A stretch of 64,000 nt of DNA. Source: Melghiribacillus thermohalophilus. Its GTDB lineage: Bacteria; Bacillota; Bacilli; Bacillales; Alkalibacillaceae. Below the pieces are notes generated by a model. That model did no database searches. It was not told the DNA's origin and saw only the letters and a list, made by a program, of their open reading frames with translations. Shown here one piece after another: positions 18,255 to 59,966 of this stretch (within the stretch, counting starts at the first letter, position 1; every line of letters starts with the position of its first letter). The stretch covers positions 1 to 64,000 of the forward strand of contig NZ_SMAN01000008.1 in the NCBI RefSeq assembly GCF_004342905.1, written 5' to 3'. Both the position numbers and the translations under genes were made by a program.

Positions 18255-19238
18255 TTAGAATTCGGCCAGATCACGCATGGCTTTTTCAACCTTTTCCGGA
18301 TTGATCATAAAGTATTTTTCCATCGTTGGTGCATATGGCATCGCAGGAACATCCGGACCAGCCAGACGTTTGATCGGAGCATCGAGGTCAAATAAGCAAT
18401 GCTCTGAAATGATTGCGGATACCTCGCTCATGATGCTTCCTTCTTTGTTATCCTCGGTTACAAGCAATACTTTTCCTGTTTTTTGGGCTGCCTCAATAAT
18501 TGCCTCTTTGTCGAGAGGATAAACCGTGCGGAGGTCGAGAATATGGGCAGAAATACCTTCCTCTTCAAGCTTTTCAGCAGCCTGAAGGGCAAAGTGAACA
18601 CCCAGTCCATAAGTGATAACCGTGATGTCAGAACCTTCCCGCTTCACATCTGCTTTTCCGATTGGCAGTACATAGTCATCTTCTGGAACTTCTCCCTTTA
18701 ATAGACGATAGGCACGTTTATGTTCAAAGAATAATACCGGATCTTCATCACGTATAGCTGCCTTTAAGAGCCCCTTCACATCATAAGGAGTGGAAGGCAT
18801 CACAATTTTTAAGCCTGGCTGATTGGCAAAAACCGCTTCAACCGACTGGGAATGGTAGAGAGCTCCGTGTACACCGCCTCCATATGGGGCACGAATCGTA
18901 ATCGGGCAGTTCCAGTCATTATTAGAACGATAGCGGATACGTGCAGCTTCAGAAATAATTTGATTTACTGCAGGCATAATAAAGTCAGCAAACTGAATTT
19001 CCGCTACCGGTCTCATGCCATACATCGCCGCACCAATTCCAACACCTGCAATGGCGGATTCAGCTAAAGGTGTGTCAATGACACGGTCTTCGCCGAATTC
19101 ATCATATAGTCCATCGGTTGCGCGGAAAACGCCACCCCGCTTCCCAACGTCTTCACCTAAAATAAAAACCTTTTCATCACGCTTCATTTCTTCTCTTAAG
19201 GCCTGTGTGACCGCCTGTATATATGACATTACTGGCAT
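18255..19238 (-). CDS. bkdAB: Branched-chain alpha-keto acid dehydrogenase E1 beta
   Basis: A 327-residue transketolase-like subunit that with BkdAA decarboxylates keto acids of leucine, isoleucine and valine. Visible features are LGEDVGKRGGVFRAT near the N-terminus, DTPLAESAIAGVGIGAA, and IRAPYGGGVHGALYHSQS of the active-site wall. The start ATG 19238 follows GGGGGAG; ATG 19229 is an alternative. It is 21 bases before bkdB. Confidence 0.96.
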   Translation of the reverse strand: MPVMSYIQAVTQALREEMKRDEKVFILGEDVGKRGGVFRATDGLYDEFGEDRVIDTPLAESAIAGVGIGAAMYGMRPVAEIQFADFIMPAVNQIISEAARIRYRSNNDWNCPITIRAPYGGGVHGALYHSQSVEAVFANQPGLKIVMPSTPYDVKGLLKAAIRDEDPVLFFEHKRAYRLLKGEVPEDDYVLPIGKADVKREGSDITVITYGLGVHFALQAAEKLEEEGISAHILDLRTVYPLDKEAIIEAAQKTGKVLLVTEDNKEGSIMSEVSAIISEHCLFDLDAPIKRLAGPDVPAMPYAPTMEKYFMINPEKVEKAMRDLAEF

Positions 19239-19253
19239 CGAATCTCCCCCTCC

Positions 19254-20246
19254 TTATTCTGCATACACGTGTTTTAACGCATCTTCCGGATCTGCATACG
19301 GTGCATTTTCCGCATAATCCGTCGCTTCATTAACGAGTTTGTCAATTTCTTTATGAAGCTCTTTTTCTTTTTCTTCTGTCAGGACACCGTTATCCTTTAG
19401 ATACTGGGCAAAAGTGATAATGGAGTCCTTCTTCTTCGCTTCTTCCACTTCTTCCCGTTCACGATAGGTGCGGTCATCGTCGTCACTGGAGTGTGGTGTT
19501 AAACGGTAGGAGACGGTTTCAATCAAGGTCGGTCCTTCTCCTTTTACCGCCCGTTCTCTTGCTTCTTTCACCACTTCATATACCGCCAGGGGATCATTTC
19601 CATCTACTGTATATCCCGGCATACCATAGCCGATGGCGCGATCTGACACTTTTTCACAGGCCAGCTGTTTTTTAATCGGTACGGAAATCGCATATTTGTT
19701 GTTTTCGACCATGGTAATCACGGGCAATTTGTGAACGCCCGCAAAGTTCAATCCCTCATGGAAGTCTCCCTGGTTGGATGACCCTTCTCCGAGGGTTACA
19801 AATGTAACGAAATCTTTCTTTTCCATTTTGGCAGCCAGGGCTACACCTACCGCATGGGGAACCTGTGTGGTAACAGGGGAAGATCCTGTCAGAATGCGGT
19901 TTTTCTTCTGACCAAAATGTCCGGGCATCTGGCGTCCCCCTGAGTTCGGATCTTCTTTTTTTGCAAAGCCGGACAACATGAGATCTTTAGCTGTCATCCC
20001 AAATGCCAGCACAACTCCCATGTCACGGTAATACGGTGCCACATAATCTTTTTCCCGGTCAAGAGCATAAGCAGCTCCCACCTGGGCAGCTTCCTGACCC
20101 TGACAGGAAATCACAAATGGAATTTTTCCTGCCCGGTTTAAAAGCCACATCCGTTCGTCAATCTTTCGGGCCAAAAGCATGGTACGAAACATGTCCAGCA
20201 CCTGTTCATCGCTTAAACCTAACGCTTCGTGACGTTTTTTCGCCAT
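19254..20246 (-). CDS. bkdAA: Branched-chain alpha-keto acid dehydrogenase E1 alpha
   Basis: A 330-residue thiamine-diphosphate-binding subunit. The ThDP/Mg motif starts at GEGSSNQGDFHEGLNFA and ends ENNKYAISVP. The phosphorylation-loop equivalent YRLTPHSSDDDDRTYR is also visible. ATG 20246 follows GGAGG with correct spacing; an in-frame TTG lies one codon upstream. It is 15 bases from bkdAB, within the operon. Confidence 0.96.
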   Translation of the reverse strand: MAKKRHEALGLSDEQVLDMFRTMLLARKIDERMWLLNRAGKIPFVISCQGQEAAQVGAAYALDREKDYVAPYYRDMGVVLAFGMTAKDLMLSGFAKKEDPNSGGRQMPGHFGQKKNRILTGSSPVTTQVPHAVGVALAAKMEKKDFVTFVTLGEGSSNQGDFHEGLNFAGVHKLPVITMVENNKYAISVPIKKQLACEKVSDRAIGYGMPGYTVDGNDPLAVYEVVKEARERAVKGEGPTLIETVSYRLTPHSSDDDDRTYREREEVEEAKKKDSIITFAQYLKDNGVLTEEKEKELHKEIDKLVNEATDYAENAPYADPEDALKHVYAE

Positions 20247-27439: not shown

Positions 27440-27522
27440 ATCATCTAGGAACAATCATATGAACAAGTGGCCGAGAAAAAAAATGAACGATGGAAAAGAC
27501 GAACCATTTCGCAAAACATGAC

Positions 27523-27602
27523 GGAGTCAACCTGCTTAGACTCCAGGTCGACAAAAAACGGCCACGTCCTGTGGCCAACATTGACACTAGCACGTCCTGT
27601 GC
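27523..27602. repeat. Cluster of three small hairpins sharing a CGTCCT loop
   Basis: Three inverted repeats follow each other: GGAGTC/GACTCC (27523-27544), GGCCAC/GTGGCC (27560-27576) and GCAC/GTGC (27590-27602). The last two have the same loop GTCCT, so CACGTCCTGTG appears twice. The surrounding 27440-27690 holds no gene. It looks like a mobile palindromic repeat or structured RNA element; no second copy was noticed in this window. Confidence 0.5.
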
Positions 27603-27708
27603 GTCGCGGGAACAACATGAGCGAAAATCACAAAAGACAGAAGGATGAGCTGCCTAGCGAAGCCTCAAGCCTTGCCCGCTGAAAATGATGCATATTGACG
27701 AAATAAAA

Positions 27709-27757
27709 AATATCCGAACTTATTCATGTGATGATTGAATATCGTTCGGATATTTCA
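27709..27757. terminator. Bidirectional terminator between the DUF2627 gene and thrD
   Basis: A 12-bp stem AAATATCCGAAC/GTTCGGATATTT (27709-27720, 27745-27756) lies between convergent genes, with T-rich flanks. Confidence 0.75.
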
Positions 27758-27787
27758 TTTTCTGATGAAGGTTTATCCCGGCCTCTT

Positions 27788-29134
27788 TCATTTGAAAAAT
27801 GTTTCGTATAATGATTTGACAGCAGGTACCAGTTTGTCCGATTTCACTCCAAACATCATAGATACCTCTGAGGAACCCTGGTTAATCATTTCAATATTCA
27901 CATTCGCCCTGGCGAATGCTTCAGTAGCCCGGCTTGCCACGCCAATGGTACTGTTCATCCCTTCCCCGACAATCATAATCATGGCCAAATCTCTTTCCAC
28001 ACTGACGGTATCTACGTGGAGTTCTTCCCGAATCCGCTGAACCACGCGTTTTTCTTTATCTTGAGGGAATTGATTTTCTCGGATAATCACTGACATATCA
28101 TCGATTCCCGATGGAGCATGTTCAAAGGAAATCTGTTCATCCACTAAAATTTCCAGCAAGTTTTTCCCAAAACCCAGTTCCCTGTTCATTAAATACTTGC
28201 TCACATAAATACTGGCAAATCCTGTGTCGCTGGCTATGCCTATGACAGGTCCGTTGGTGGCATCCCTTTCGGAAACAATCATCGTACCTGGCTTTTCAGG
28301 ATGATTGGTATTTTTGATGCAGACGGGAATCTGGGCTTTAAAAGCAGGGATTAAGGCTTCATCATGAAATACCGAAAATCCAGCATAGGAAAGTTCCCGC
28401 ATTTCCCGATACGTCAATTTCTTGATTTCCTTTGGATGTTTAATAATAGACGGATTCACACAATATACGGAGTCCACATCCGTAAAATTCTCGTACAGAT
28501 CGGCTTTTACCCCGGCAGCTACAATCGAACCGGTAATATCAGATCCCCCCCTCGGGAAAGTCATTAATTCTCCCAGTTTCGTATAGCCGAAAAATCCAGG
28601 GATAACCGAAATTCCTTCCCTGTCCCTTAGTGCATATAGATGATCAAAACTTTCATCCAGTACCTGAGCGCTCCCCGGTTCATTACTCACCAGAATCCCC
28701 GCTTCTTTCGGGTTCACATATGATGCCTGCTTTCCGAGGGACTTCAAGTATTCGCTCAATATTTTAGCAAGAGAGTCTTCCCCCATGGCTTTTAATGCAT
28801 CCAGCCGATTTGGACTGAAGTTGTCGGCCTCAAGAATATGTTGAATCGATTTCTCGATCTCATCGAGCATCTTTTCATTTAAATTCAATTCATCAATAAT
28901 GGAGTGAAAACGGTCGATGATCCGGTTTAATGCCGGTTCAATGGATTCATCCTTTACATAACATTGTCCGAGTTCAATAAAAAGATCGGTAACCTTGATA
29001 TCCCCTTCAAACCGTTTCCCGGGTGCAGAGACAACGACAAATTTCCGTTCAGGATCACTTAAAATAATGTCAGCTACTTTTTTCAGCATCTCTGCCGTTG
29101 CCACTGAACTTCCGCCAAATTTTGCAACTTTCAT
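27788..29134 (-). CDS. thrD: Aspartate kinase (YclM/ThrD-type)
   Basis: A 448-residue enzyme phosphorylating aspartate at the head of the lysine, threonine and methionine pathways. The kinase start VAKFGGSSVA, FPRGGSDITGSIVAA in the substrate site and two C-terminal ACT domains (around SIYVSKYLMNRELGFG and IMIVGEGMNS) are visible. The length and N-terminus fit the YclM class rather than the DapG or LysC isoforms, which carry an internal translation start for a second subunit. It starts with ATG behind AGAGG. It stands alone; no lysine riboswitch is seen upstream. Confidence 0.9.
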   Translation of the reverse strand: MKVAKFGGSSVATAEMLKKVADIILSDPERKFVVVSAPGKRFEGDIKVTDLFIELGQCYVKDESIEPALNRIIDRFHSIIDELNLNEKMLDEIEKSIQHILEADNFSPNRLDALKAMGEDSLAKILSEYLKSLGKQASYVNPKEAGILVSNEPGSAQVLDESFDHLYALRDREGISVIPGFFGYTKLGELMTFPRGGSDITGSIVAAGVKADLYENFTDVDSVYCVNPSIIKHPKEIKKLTYREMRELSYAGFSVFHDEALIPAFKAQIPVCIKNTNHPEKPGTMIVSERDATNGPVIGIASDTGFASIYVSKYLMNRELGFGKNLLEILVDEQISFEHAPSGIDDMSVIIRENQFPQDKEKRVVQRIREELHVDTVSVERDLAMIMIVGEGMNSTIGVASRATEAFARANVNIEMINQGSSEVSMMFGVKSDKLVPAVKSLYETFFK

Positions 29135-37984: not shown

Positions 37985-38620
37985 GTAAACCAAAGAGACG
38001 GGATGGTCATTTAAAGGGTAAATATTGCGGCTTAAGGTCCAGTAGGTTTTCCCAGGCGGATACCGTGTGTTGCCACAGCGGCGGTTCCCCTTTAAATCCA
38101 CCTTAGCCCCGTCACCGAAGGCTAGACTGGACTGCCACTTAGTCCGCACTACAATCCCCTTTAAATGTCCATGACGGAACAGTCTAGGAGATTTCCTCAA
38201 CAGCCTTTAGCCGTTCCCTAGCCTCTTTTGCAGTACTGATTTCATATGGTGTCGCGAGCGTTAAAACAGTGGCCAGCTGTTTTTTACACTCAATCCATAA
38301 TCCCCTCAGTACCACTCAAGGCAGGCTACGCTGTGCATAGAGATGCCCAATCCCTATGACACAGGTTCATACCCCATTTCGTAATGTTCTGCACGATCAC
38401 AGCACACCACAAAGATGGGCCTCCGCGGGGGCAGGGTCAACGCCCACATGCCTTTGTGGATCGCCCTACCCCCTTAACTCCCAGCACCGACCCAGGGCTG
38501 GGCGCCCCAAGCCGACACAAGGAACTTCATCGATGTGCCCTTTGGCGGATTTTTAGGCCCGCCTTCAGGAACGGAGGGCTGACTAGAATACTGCACCATC
38601 CCACCTATCTTTTTTGGTAA
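37985..38620 (-). ncRNA. ole: OLE RNA (ornate, large, extremophilic RNA)
   Basis: About 640 nt, much richer in G+C than its surroundings, with no coding frame that makes sense. It sits between ispA and the OapA-like gene, exactly where OLE RNA lies in Bacillus halodurans. Minus-strand helices visible include CCACAAAG/CTTTGTGG (38452-38459 with 38407-38414) and a 14-bp long-range helix joining 38157-38170 to 38005-38018. Many GA/GNRA-like internal loops are also present. The ends are approximate. It is known from B. halodurans to form a membrane RNP with OapA and to matter under ethanol and cold stress; those roles here are inference. Confidence 0.88.
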
Positions 38621-55376: not shown

Positions 55377-55525
55377 CTATTGGAGGGGTAAATAGGGGGA
55401 TAATCGCACAAAAAAATGACTATTTCATGATATAATGAAAAATGTGACAAATTTCTATCTATTTCAGGGTGGGACTGGGTTTCGAAAATTTCGTAAAAAG
55501 AGAAAAAAAGGGGGACATTTTATAC

Positions 55526-57520
55526 ATGTTAAATAGTATCAAGACAAAGATCATCTTCACATTTACATTGCTATTTATTCTCGTTCTCGCATCCGTATCT
55601 ACAATTACGTACATAAGTACAAAGAGCTCTATTGAAGAAGAAATTAAAATCTCGGCTCAGGATTCTGTCCAGGAAATGAAACGAAATATCGAACTTTATC
55701 TGAAACATTACATGAATAGTATCGAACGTTATGCAAGAAATGAAGGTCTACAAAGCTTTATTAAAGATCAGATTAATGGTGAAGACACAAGTTTTGCGCC
55801 AATCAAAAATGACTTTGCCACCTATAATGAAACCTATCCTAATGTAGAGCTCACCTATTTTGGATTAAGCAATAAAACCTTCTATTCGGAACCCGAAATC
55901 GAACTCCCTGATGACTGGGACCCAACCTCACGCCCATGGTATCAGGTAGCGGCTGAAAACCCAAAACAGGTCGTGTTTACTGATCCTTACCAGGATGTTA
56001 ATACAGGGGATTACATTGTCAGTTTAGCCCGTTCCATCCATGATCCAGTTACAGATGAACTGATTGGGGTTATGGCCAATGATATCACTCTGGAGGCTTT
56101 AACTAGCATTGTTACCGAAACGAATGTTGGATATGATGGATACCCAGTTCTTCTTGATCAAAACGGACTGGCTCTGGTGCACCCTTCTAAAAAAGGGGAA
56201 AATTTATCTGACTCCTCTTTGTTCAAAAAAATGAACGAAGGAGACAAAGAAACAGGACTAATTACGATTGGGGAAAACGATCAATTAATTGCCTATCATA
56301 CGATTGCCGGAACCAACTGGAAAATTGGGGCTGTTTACTCAGAGAAAAATTTATTTGAATTGTCCCGTCATTTGTTACAGACTGTCATCATCATTTCTGC
56401 GGTTGCCATCGTGATCACTTTTATTGTTACGTATTTTATTTCAAGAAGTATCACAAACCCGCTGATCCGTATGAAAAACGAGGTTAACAAAGTCGCAGAT
56501 GGTGATTTAACCGCAAATGTAAATATTCATTCAAAAGACGAGATTGGCCAGCTCGCTACGAACTTTAACCAGATGGTTCATAACGTTAAAGAATTAATTG
56601 AACATGTAAATCATTCTATTGAGAAAGTCAGCGAGTCATCAGAATCATTGAGTGCCATCTCAGAAGAAACGAGTGCTTCCGGTGAGGAAATCAACCGAGC
56701 AATTTCTGAAATTGCCAGCGGTGCAACAAAACAGGCAGAAGATGTTGAAAACACAAGGCAAAAAGTTTCTTCCCTGTCTGAACAAATTCAAAAAGTAAAT
56801 CAGCAAAATGACCAAATGTTGAATCTATCTACCAGGGCGAATGAAGCCAATGAAACAGGACTGAATCAGATCACTCAACTCAGTGCAAAAACAGATGAAT
56901 TCCAGAAAGTTATTTCTGAAGTTAGCAGTGTTATCAGCAGTCTCGTAAATCAGGTCAAAGCCATTGAAAGTGTCATTGATTCCATTACAGATATCTCTGA
57001 GCAAACCAATTTGCTTGCTTTAAATGCTAGTATTGAAGCTGCAAGAGCAGGAGAGCATGGTAAAGGCTTTGCTGTCGTTGCGGAAGAAGTGCGAAAGCTC
57101 GCCGAGCAGTCATCCAGAGCAACCGAGCAGGTGCGTCAGACGATTAATGGTATTGAAGAAGAAACACAAAAAGCTTTAAGAGAAATGGAACAAACCGAAC
57201 AAATATCGAAAGAGCAGGATGAAGTAGTTAAGGATACAGAGGATGCCTTTAATACCATTGCTGATGTCATGCAGCAGATGATTACTTCTATCGAACAGGT
57301 AAGTGAAGAAGTCAAGCAAATGATTCAATTTGAAGAAAATGTAAGGGAATCTGTCGAAAATATTGCATCCGTTTCTGAAGAGTATGCCGCCTCAACAGAG
57401 GAAGTCACAGCCTCTACTGAAGAGACCATTAAGGCGATCAGTTCCATTTCAGAATCGGCAGAACAATTAAATGAATCCAGTCAGCGCCTGCAGGAAATGA
57501 TTAATCGATTTAAGCTGTAG
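55526..57520 (+). CDS. Methyl-accepting chemotaxis protein with dCache sensor
   Basis: A 664-residue chemoreceptor. TM1 is at about 6-28 and an extracellular dCache domain spans about 35-280. TM2 is near 285-310 ([19 protein letters not shown]). HAMP follows from about 310, then a signalling domain with the hairpin tip [20 protein letters not shown]. The sensor contains [14 protein letters not shown] and VMANDITL, spaced like the amino-acid-binding dCache_1AA motif (Arg, Trp, Tyr, Asp), so an amino acid ligand is plausible. ATG 55526 follows AGGGGG; GTG 55469 is in frame. Its terminator follows. Confidence 0.93.
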
Positions 57521-57542: not shown

Positions 57543-57591
57543 AGGAAGCTGTCTCAGACATATCTTGTCTTTGAGGCAGCTTCTTTTTTTA
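57543..57591 (+). terminator. Terminator of the chemoreceptor gene
   Basis: GAAGCTGTCTCA pairs with TTTGAGGCAGCTTC (one bulge), followed by seven T. Confidence 0.85.
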
Positions 57592-57753: not shown

Positions 57754-57802
57754 GGTAAAACACACCTTTTCTCAGGTTATTAGCGCATACCTTTAGGTGA
57801 TC

Positions 57803-58495
57803 ACGCTTTTTCTTTGGGCGATTAGCTCCTTGCTTTGGGTTGTCACGCAGCCACCCTGGGCCATCAGCGCTCCTCCCTGGGCTGTCACGCAGCCACTTTG
57901 GGCCATTCGTTCTTTACCTTGGGCCGTTGCGCAGCCACTTTGGGCCATCAGCGCTCATCCCTGGGCTGTCACGCTCCCACTTTGGGCCATCAGCGCTCAT
58001 CCTTGGGCTGTCACGCACCCACTTTGGGCCATCAGTGCTCCTCCCTGGGCTGTCACGCTCCCACTTTGGGCCATCAGCGCTCATCCTTGGGCCGTCACAC
58101 TCCCACCCTGGGCCATCGGCGCTCCTCCCTGGGCTGTCACGCACCCACTTTGGGCCATTCGCACCTTACTTTGGGCCGTTGCGCTTTTCCTTTGGGTCAT
58201 TCGCTCTTTACCTTGGGCCGTCACGCACCCATCTTGGGCCATCGCAGCACCAACTTGGGCCATTCGCACCTTACTTTGGGCCGTTGCGCTTTTCCTTTGG
58301 GTCATTCGCTCTTTACCTTGGGCCGTCGCGCACCCTCCCTGGGCCATCAGCGCTCATCCCTGGGCTGTCACGCACCCACTTTGGGCCATCGCAGCACCAA
58401 CTTGGGCCGTCACGCTCCCACTTTGGGCCATCAGTGCTCCTCCTTGGGCCGTCACGCTCCCACTTTGGGCCATTCGCATCTTCCTTTGGGGGACC
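57803..58495 (+). repeat. Tandem array of about 33 copies of a 21-bp repeat
   Basis: Two alternating 21-bp variants share TGGGCYRTCA: one continues to GCGCTCATCCC-like, the other to CGCTCCCACTT-like ends, giving a 42-bp dimer over most of the array. A 72-bp block at 58151-58222 recurs at 58256-58327, exactly five units away, showing internal duplication. Because 21 is divisible by 3, all three plus frames stay open. One would encode Trp-rich heptads (WAISAPP/WAVTLPL), but no ribosome site precedes them. The array fills the gap between the chemoreceptor and pdhD. Confidence 0.93.
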
Positions 58496-58513
58496 AGAGG
58501 ATTTACTGTAGCA

Positions 58514-58545
58514 AAAAAAGCATCCCCAAAAGGGGGATGCCTGTT
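58514..58545 (-). terminator. Terminator of the pdh operon
   Basis: GCATCCCC/GGGGGATGC stem (58520-58541) with seven T on the minus strand, just after the pdhD stop. Confidence 0.88.
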
Positions 58546-58556
58546 TATCGTTAAAC

Positions 58557-59966
58557 TTATTTAACAATGTGAATCGGTGTGCCAAGAGCTACCTCAGCAG
58601 CTTCCATGGTAATCTCACCTAATGTTGGGTGAGCATGTATTGTAAGGGCTAAGTCTTCTGCTGTCATGCCTGCTTCAATGGCAAGGCCAAGTTCTGCGAT
58701 CATATCACTTGCATTTGGACCGGCAACCTGGGCACCAATCACCAGACCATCCTCTTTTCTAGTTACCAGTTTCACAAATCCGTCAGTATCATTTAGTGAC
58801 AGCGCACGTCCATTTGCTGCAAATGGGAATTTCGCTACTTCCACATCGTATCCAGCTTCTTTTGCTTCTTTATCTGTATAGCCTACGCTGGCCAGTTCAG
58901 GATCTGAGAAGACAACGGCTGGAATGCCAATATAGTCAATTTCAGATTTTTCGCCGCTAATGGCTTCAGCCGCAATCTTACCTTCGTAAGAGGCTTTATG
59001 TGCCAGAGGCGGTCCGGCTACAATGTCACCAATAGCGTAAATGTTATCGATATTGGTGCGGCACTGTTTATCAATCTTAATCAGACCCCTATCGTCCATT
59101 TCAACGCCTACCTGTTCAAGGCCAAGTTCATCCGTGTTTGGACGGCGGCCTACGGTAACCAGTACGTAATCGGCGTCAACCGTATCTTCTTTTCCTTTAG
59201 CTTCATACGTAACCGTTACGCCATTGTCTTTTTCCTCTACACCTTTTGCCATCGCATTCGTAATCACTGTTACGCCTTTTTTCTTCAGACGGCGTTTGAC
59301 GATGGATGTCATATCTTTCGGGAATCCGCCCAAAATTTCATTGGCACCTTCCAGTATCGTTACTTCTGTGCCGAAGTTTGCATAGGCCGTACCCAGTTCA
59401 GTACCAATATAGCCGCCACCGATCACGACCATCTTTTTCGGGATTTCATTGAGATTTAAAGCACCAGTTGAATCCAATACCCGATCAGAAAATTTGAACG
59501 CTGGAATTTCAATCGGACGAGAACCGGTTGCAATAATACAATTGTTAAATTTATAGGTCTGTGAATTTTTTTCATCCATTACACGGACGGTGTTTTTATC
59601 TACAAAATAGGCTTCACCTTTAATGATATCTACTTTGTTTCCTTTTAGCAGGCTTTCGACACCACCGGTAAGCTTCTTCACAATGCTTTCTTTCCACTTT
59701 TGAACTTTGGAAAAGTCAACCTTTACATTTTCCGCTGTGATTCCCATATCATCGGAATGCTGTGCATGTTCGTAGCGATGGCTGGCAGAAATCAAAGCTT
59801 TAGATGGGATACAGCCAACATTTAAGCAAACTCCACCAAGGTTCCCTTTATCTACAATGGTCACCTTTTGTCCAAGCTGAGCTGCACGAATCGCAGCAAC
59901 ATAACCGCCAGGTCCAGCACCTACGACAAGAGTATCAAGTTCAATTGGAAAATCTCCTACAACCAT
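58557..59966 (-). CDS. pdhD: Dihydrolipoyl dehydrogenase E3 of pyruvate dehydrogenase
   Basis: A 469-residue FAD-disulfide reductase. FAD motif [17 protein letters not shown], redox disulfide [19 protein letters not shown] motif [14 protein letters not shown] and C-terminal [12 protein letters not shown] 59966 follows GGAGG, 4 bases after pdhC. A second E3, lpdV, is in the bkd operon; the two differ around the disulfide (CLNVGC here, CLHKGC there). Confidence 0.96.

Follow-up and report, generated by a model that had tools for sequence, protein, structure and literature searches.

The window analysed here, a stretch of 64,000 nucleotides from Melghiribacillus thermohalophilus, contains a 21-bp tandem array with higher-order periods of 42, 84 and 126 bp, recognized by direct reading and TRF. 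The array lies between the 3' ends of two convergent genes, one encoding a methyl-accepting chemotaxis protein (MCP) and the other dihydrolipoyl dehydrogenase (lpdA), with the terminators of both genes in between. The features of the locus are as follows.

55469..57520, + strand: MCP gene, the 5' neighbour (start codon approximate; function from translation)
57545..57583, + strand: intrinsic terminator of the MCP gene, 231 bp before the array
57773..57814, + strand: two decayed edge units, CAGGTTATTAGCGCATACCTT and TAGGTGATCACGCTTTTTCTT (direct reading)
57815..58486, + strand: array of 32 units of 21 bp with the core TGGGC[C/T]RT, in which the unit types TGGGCCATCAGCGCTC... and TGGGCYGTCACGC... 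alternate (direct reading, TRF and dissection)
58487..58507, + strand: decayed 3' edge unit, TGGGGGACCAGAGGATTTACT (direct reading)
58518..58542, − strand: intrinsic terminator of the convergent lpdA gene, 31 bp past the 3' edge of the array
58557..59966, − strand: lpdA, the convergent neighbour (function from translation)

Strict dissection of the 32 units gave steps of exactly 21 bp throughout (31 of 31) and a perfect TGGGCYRT core in 28 units. The first-pass annotation of this DNA had described about 33 copies with an alternating 42-bp period between two terminators, and all three points hold: there are 32 clean units plus about three decayed edge units, the MCP (57545-57583, +) and lpdA (58542-58518, −) terminators flank them, and the alternation is real, as mean identity is 0.73 between alternate units and 0.53 between neighbours. 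Its statement that all plus frames are open applies to forward frames 1 and 2, with frame 3 carrying one stop within the 32 units. It was also right to set CRISPR aside. CRISPR repeats are about 24-40 bp long, are separated by unique spacers and usually accompany cas genes; here, 21-bp units run head to tail, with repeated higher-order copies, between MCP and lpdA.

Two other features of the window are recorded for completeness. An OLE RNA, a large structured RNA of extremophile Firmicutes, lies at 37987-38615 on the − strand (Rfam RF01071, 544.7 bits). At 27476-27793, a repeat of about 300 bp overlaps a weak Bacillaceae-1 RNA match (27536-27603); this dispersed repeat also occurs elsewhere in this genome (L168:7140-7464) and in a sister species (L287:432-753).

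The window array is a member of a dispersed, species-specific intergenic set built on a core of about 8 bp every 21 bp. A pattern of two cores at variable spacing matched 387 times genome-wide, compared with 0 matches for a reversed-pattern control, and is thus far above chance. Dissection resolved at least 24 intergenic arrays with 638 units and 13.4 kb in total, each of 13-54 units, with a G+C content of 60% against 43% in the flanks. All 24 share the core TGGGC(C)RT, and their remaining bases are nearly random between arrays. With this recurrence, the locus is not the isolated, randomly decaying array that the first-pass annotation would have taken as a pointer to slipped-strand junk. Solo cores outside arrays are not enriched (7 found, 8.9 expected), which speaks against the units being copies of a solo motif elsewhere. 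In agreement with the earlier remark that no function has been described, our literature searches returned no description of this class of array.

Every one of the 24 dissected arrays sits between called genes, and the neighbours are unrelated (lpdA, atpC, upp, coaE, def and others, with names read from translations). Gene context is mixed, being co-directional, convergent or in some cases divergent, with counts that are approximate because gene calling was crude, and no neighbour function is shared. Placement along the chromosome may be uneven: contig C1 (G000; 498,720 bp) has none among the matches listed, a result with a chance of about 0.013 for 24 random arrays. Of all terminators within 150 bp, the best one is in reverse orientation past the 3' edge in 11 of 24 arrays, as opposed to 2 mirror cases (p 0.02), and the core strand is opposite the G-rich strand in 16 of the 22 arrays with clear skew (p 0.05). 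Both effects are modest and belong to this species, the sister species having no clear bias.

By definition, tandem repeats of 10-100 bp outside genes are intergenic minisatellites, and the arrays fall within this class. A neutral minisatellite is expected to vary evenly along its unit; across 624 units, instead, core positions T1, G2, G3, G4 and T8 carry 1.7-1.9 bits, C5 1.5 and R7 0.9, compared with about 0.1-0.5 for the majority of spacer positions 10-20. Spacing is equally strict, with exactly 21 bp in 600 of 614 steps (97.7%) and another length in 14. This period nearly equals a whole number of helix turns; 21 bp corresponds to two turns of B-DNA. Between arrays, most core positions are about 98% fixed and the spacer is nearly randomized, differing at about 64% of sites.

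Per site, the core differs 0.62 times as often as the spacer in unit pairs separated by a single change and 0.10 times as often between arrays (p about 3e-9; sample of 276 array pairs), indicating that core mutants arise but do not persist. Both core and phase thus look to be under selection, since such mutants turn up among very similar units but seldom between diverged ones. The method did not conceal decayed interior units, since two core mismatches were allowed and no 42-bp gaps had to be assumed in this genome. Local expansion also acts, as many arrays contain higher-order repeats of 2, 3, 5, 6 or 7 units. The earlier suggestion of 'selection or recent expansion' therefore stands on both counts: the higher-order copies show expansion, and the core and its spacing look selected. 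Edge units are decayed, with an intact core in 57 of 96 at array edges and in 471 of 542 inside. They more often carry G at position 6 (26 of 96, versus 29 of 542 interior units), the base found in the core of arrays in a genome of another family (G051), YGGGCGRT at 21 bp.

In the sister species (G012), the lpdA protein is 98% identical to the one here, and the orthologous lpdA-MCP interval holds nothing but a terminator in its 88 bp; the interval measures 1,045 bp in the window. Of the other orthologous sites compared, seven are likewise without an array in that species, and one carries an array with 21/42-bp periods built on another core, TACAACTG. TGGGC arrays were looked for in the sister species and none was found; a TACAACT-type pair pattern at 21 bp matched 103 times there and 0 times in this genome. 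We dissected 15 arrays of 21 bp with the core TACAACTG in the sister species. As a separate observation, some of these arrays (L286-L293) form part of a longer dispersed repeat whose tail is G+C-rich and which recurs almost unchanged at several loci, in some cases where a contig ends; others are single.

More distant genomes keep the period with other words. Two genomes of the same family have the cores TATCNRTC (G017) and TGCTAAA (G018) phased at 21 bp (L343:16779-16993 and 19060-19300; L337:10969-11080); their units share little beyond the core, and their spacers are largely unrelated. Genus g19 has TARCGGGT at 21 bp, met as a match of the reversed control pattern. These dialects were partly found via core patterns, with two coming from a core-agnostic scan and one from the control pattern, and loci in other taxa cannot serve as a control for the period because the pattern itself selected them. 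The search of relatives proposed in the first-pass annotation, for TGGGCCATCA-type 21-mers, was thus too narrow: the sequence is species-specific, and it is the 21-bp spacing that recurs.

The core-agnostic scan sought any 7-8-mer recurring at periods of 12-60 in non-coding DNA across eight 200-kb samples of draft genomes (1.6 Mb, 263 kb of it non-coding). Chains appeared only at 20-21 and 50-52 bp, roughly two and five helix turns, with a small number of independent hits and with all 50-52-bp chains from one genome. Several tandem arrays with 52-bp units, whose sequences differ by locus, were observed in G297 (L375, L376, L379, L380 and L381). A three-unit scan of GTDB contigs gave, among the matches listed, mostly heptanucleotide and one-off repeats and a few look-alikes (Psychrobacillus, Halobacillus alkaliphilus).

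A fixed word, two-turn spacing, a free spacer and the lack of coding or RNA-structure signals (see below) fit docking sites on the same face of the helix. Our preferred reading, to which we give a little less than an even chance from these sequence patterns, is that the arrays form a same-face platform for a putative sequence-specific DNA-binding factor. Many copies of the factor would sit side by side on one helix face, and the platform, often placed immediately after a neighbouring gene's intrinsic terminator, would set a local boundary, architectural or transcriptional. If the protein bound cooperatively, an array filled in this way after a terminator could stop polymerase that reads through or transcribes antisense; alternatively, a loaded array might mark or anchor a chromosomal position. 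Several points weigh against a binding platform. Unrelated cores in sister species would require rapid turnover of factor specificity; units may stay similar through homogenization within arrays, with no need for selection, and those at the edges do show decay; gene context is mixed, with no shared neighbour function; and solo cores are not enriched.

The main rival, and a serious one, is a neutral or selfish minisatellite, in which slippage or unequal exchange enlarged each copy of a short seed that had spread to many intergenic sites, with core and 21-bp length kept by homogenization or by the copying process at no benefit to the cell. We regard this as a real possibility, though short of probable. 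Such a process would account for the higher-order repeats of 2, 3, 5, 6 or 7 units, the decayed edges, the orthologous sites that are empty in the sister species and the almost identical array at several sister-species loci inside a larger dispersed repeat. It is harder to reconcile with spacers that are nearly randomized between arrays while most of the core stays fixed, with a core:spacer ratio that drops as units diverge and with the unrelated cores of other genera, which keep the 21-bp period even though spacers in two of them are largely unrelated.

An element acting at the RNA level is improbable. On this view, transcripts crossing the array would serve to load Rho or to cause pausing, or would offer a protein repeated binding sites on RNA, and would thereby keep antisense or read-through transcription out of the gene next door. 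Arrays often follow closely on a terminator, their core strand being antisense to the gene beside them, and the core-strand spacer in this species is C-rich and poorly structured, as Rho sites are. However, the core strand of the sister species is purine-rich, so C-richness is not general and Rho-loading as a general role is weakened; nor does an RNA site need exact two-turn spacing. Both strands fold less well than shuffles (mean z-scores of +1.5 and +0.9), which rules out RNA or single-stranded DNA hairpins, and Rfam gave no match at the window array or at the arrays on L153, L161 and L166. Together with the missing coding signal, this folding behaviour points to duplex DNA as the relevant form.

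We consider it very unlikely that the arrays are REP/BIME-type or other hairpin mobile repeats, or a captured centromere or iteron array of a plasmid or phage. Like REPs, they are dispersed, intergenic, species-specific and often behind genes (PMC3733652, PMC3686654), and 21-bp direct repeats do resemble iterons. Their units hold no palindrome, and REP/BIME elements are rejected on the folding result; phage collections, plasmid collections and IMG/VR contained no array match, which speaks against a phage or plasmid origin. A repetitive protein-coding gene with heptapeptide repeats (WA[IV]xxxx and similar), suggested by a unit that is a multiple of three and by the two open forward frames of the window array, merits almost no credence and is already refuted as a general account, in line with the earlier note's judgement that this is not a gene: each frame is closed in at least one related array, comparison with column shuffles shows no consistent frame with a shortage of stops, 1-bp indels occur, Pfam gave no match above any curated cut-off, and the proposed check for synonymous substitutions in one frame found no synonymous excess in any frame.

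Beyond this species, the same 21-base spacing with a different word in relatives suggests a little-known kind of DNA landmark. With some hesitation, we extend the binding-platform reading to the order: dispersed, helix-phased docking arrays along the whole chromosome may serve a putative fast-evolving factor, with lineages keeping the two-turn spacing and rewriting the recognition word, by analogy with the co-evolution of eukaryotic satellites and their binding proteins. If so, many Bacillus-like chromosomes would carry unrecognized sequence-specific landmarks that obey a strict rule of DNA geometry and use a fast-changing word. Such landmarks would be the bacterial equivalent of satellite DNA and could lead to a nucleoid or boundary protein not yet known. 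Should the arrays prove neutral, a mechanism would still be needed for families that hold their period at 21 bp while the core changes.

Several known systems share part of this architecture. Bacterial intergenic minisatellites and VNTR loci are likewise tandem intergenic repeats with expansion and higher-order structure, but each is usually considered a locus of its own, in most cases a neutral one; the arrays here, dispersed and at least 24 in number, have a common core and exact period with nearly random spacers, and relatives of this genome keep the period with other cores. The cyanobacterial STRR heptanucleotide and the TAACTGA repeats of Beggiatoaceae are also short intergenic direct repeats with many copies and an unclear role, with a repeated word of 7 bp (PMC4679880), whereas the units here consist of an 8-bp core and a variable spacer of 13 bp. 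RAYT-associated REP/BIME elements form dispersed, extragenic, species-specific families that are often at gene ends, and REPs are palindromes of 20-40 bp with a GTAG or CGTC end (PMC3733652). In contrast, the units described here lack a hairpin and are repeated head to tail.

Plasmid iterons and ParR-type centromere repeats are head-to-tail sites about two helix turns apart that place protein on one face, usually in few copies at one replication or partition locus; the arrays here have 13-54 units at many chromosomal sites, and we noticed no adjacent Rep or Par gene. Eukaryotic alpha satellite with its CENP-B box differs in scale, organism and location, and no centromere role is known for the arrays here. 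Nevertheless, alpha satellite combines a conserved box in diverging monomers with higher-order repeats, decayed edges and a species-specific sequence, and the arrays of M. thermohalophilus resemble it in each of these respects.
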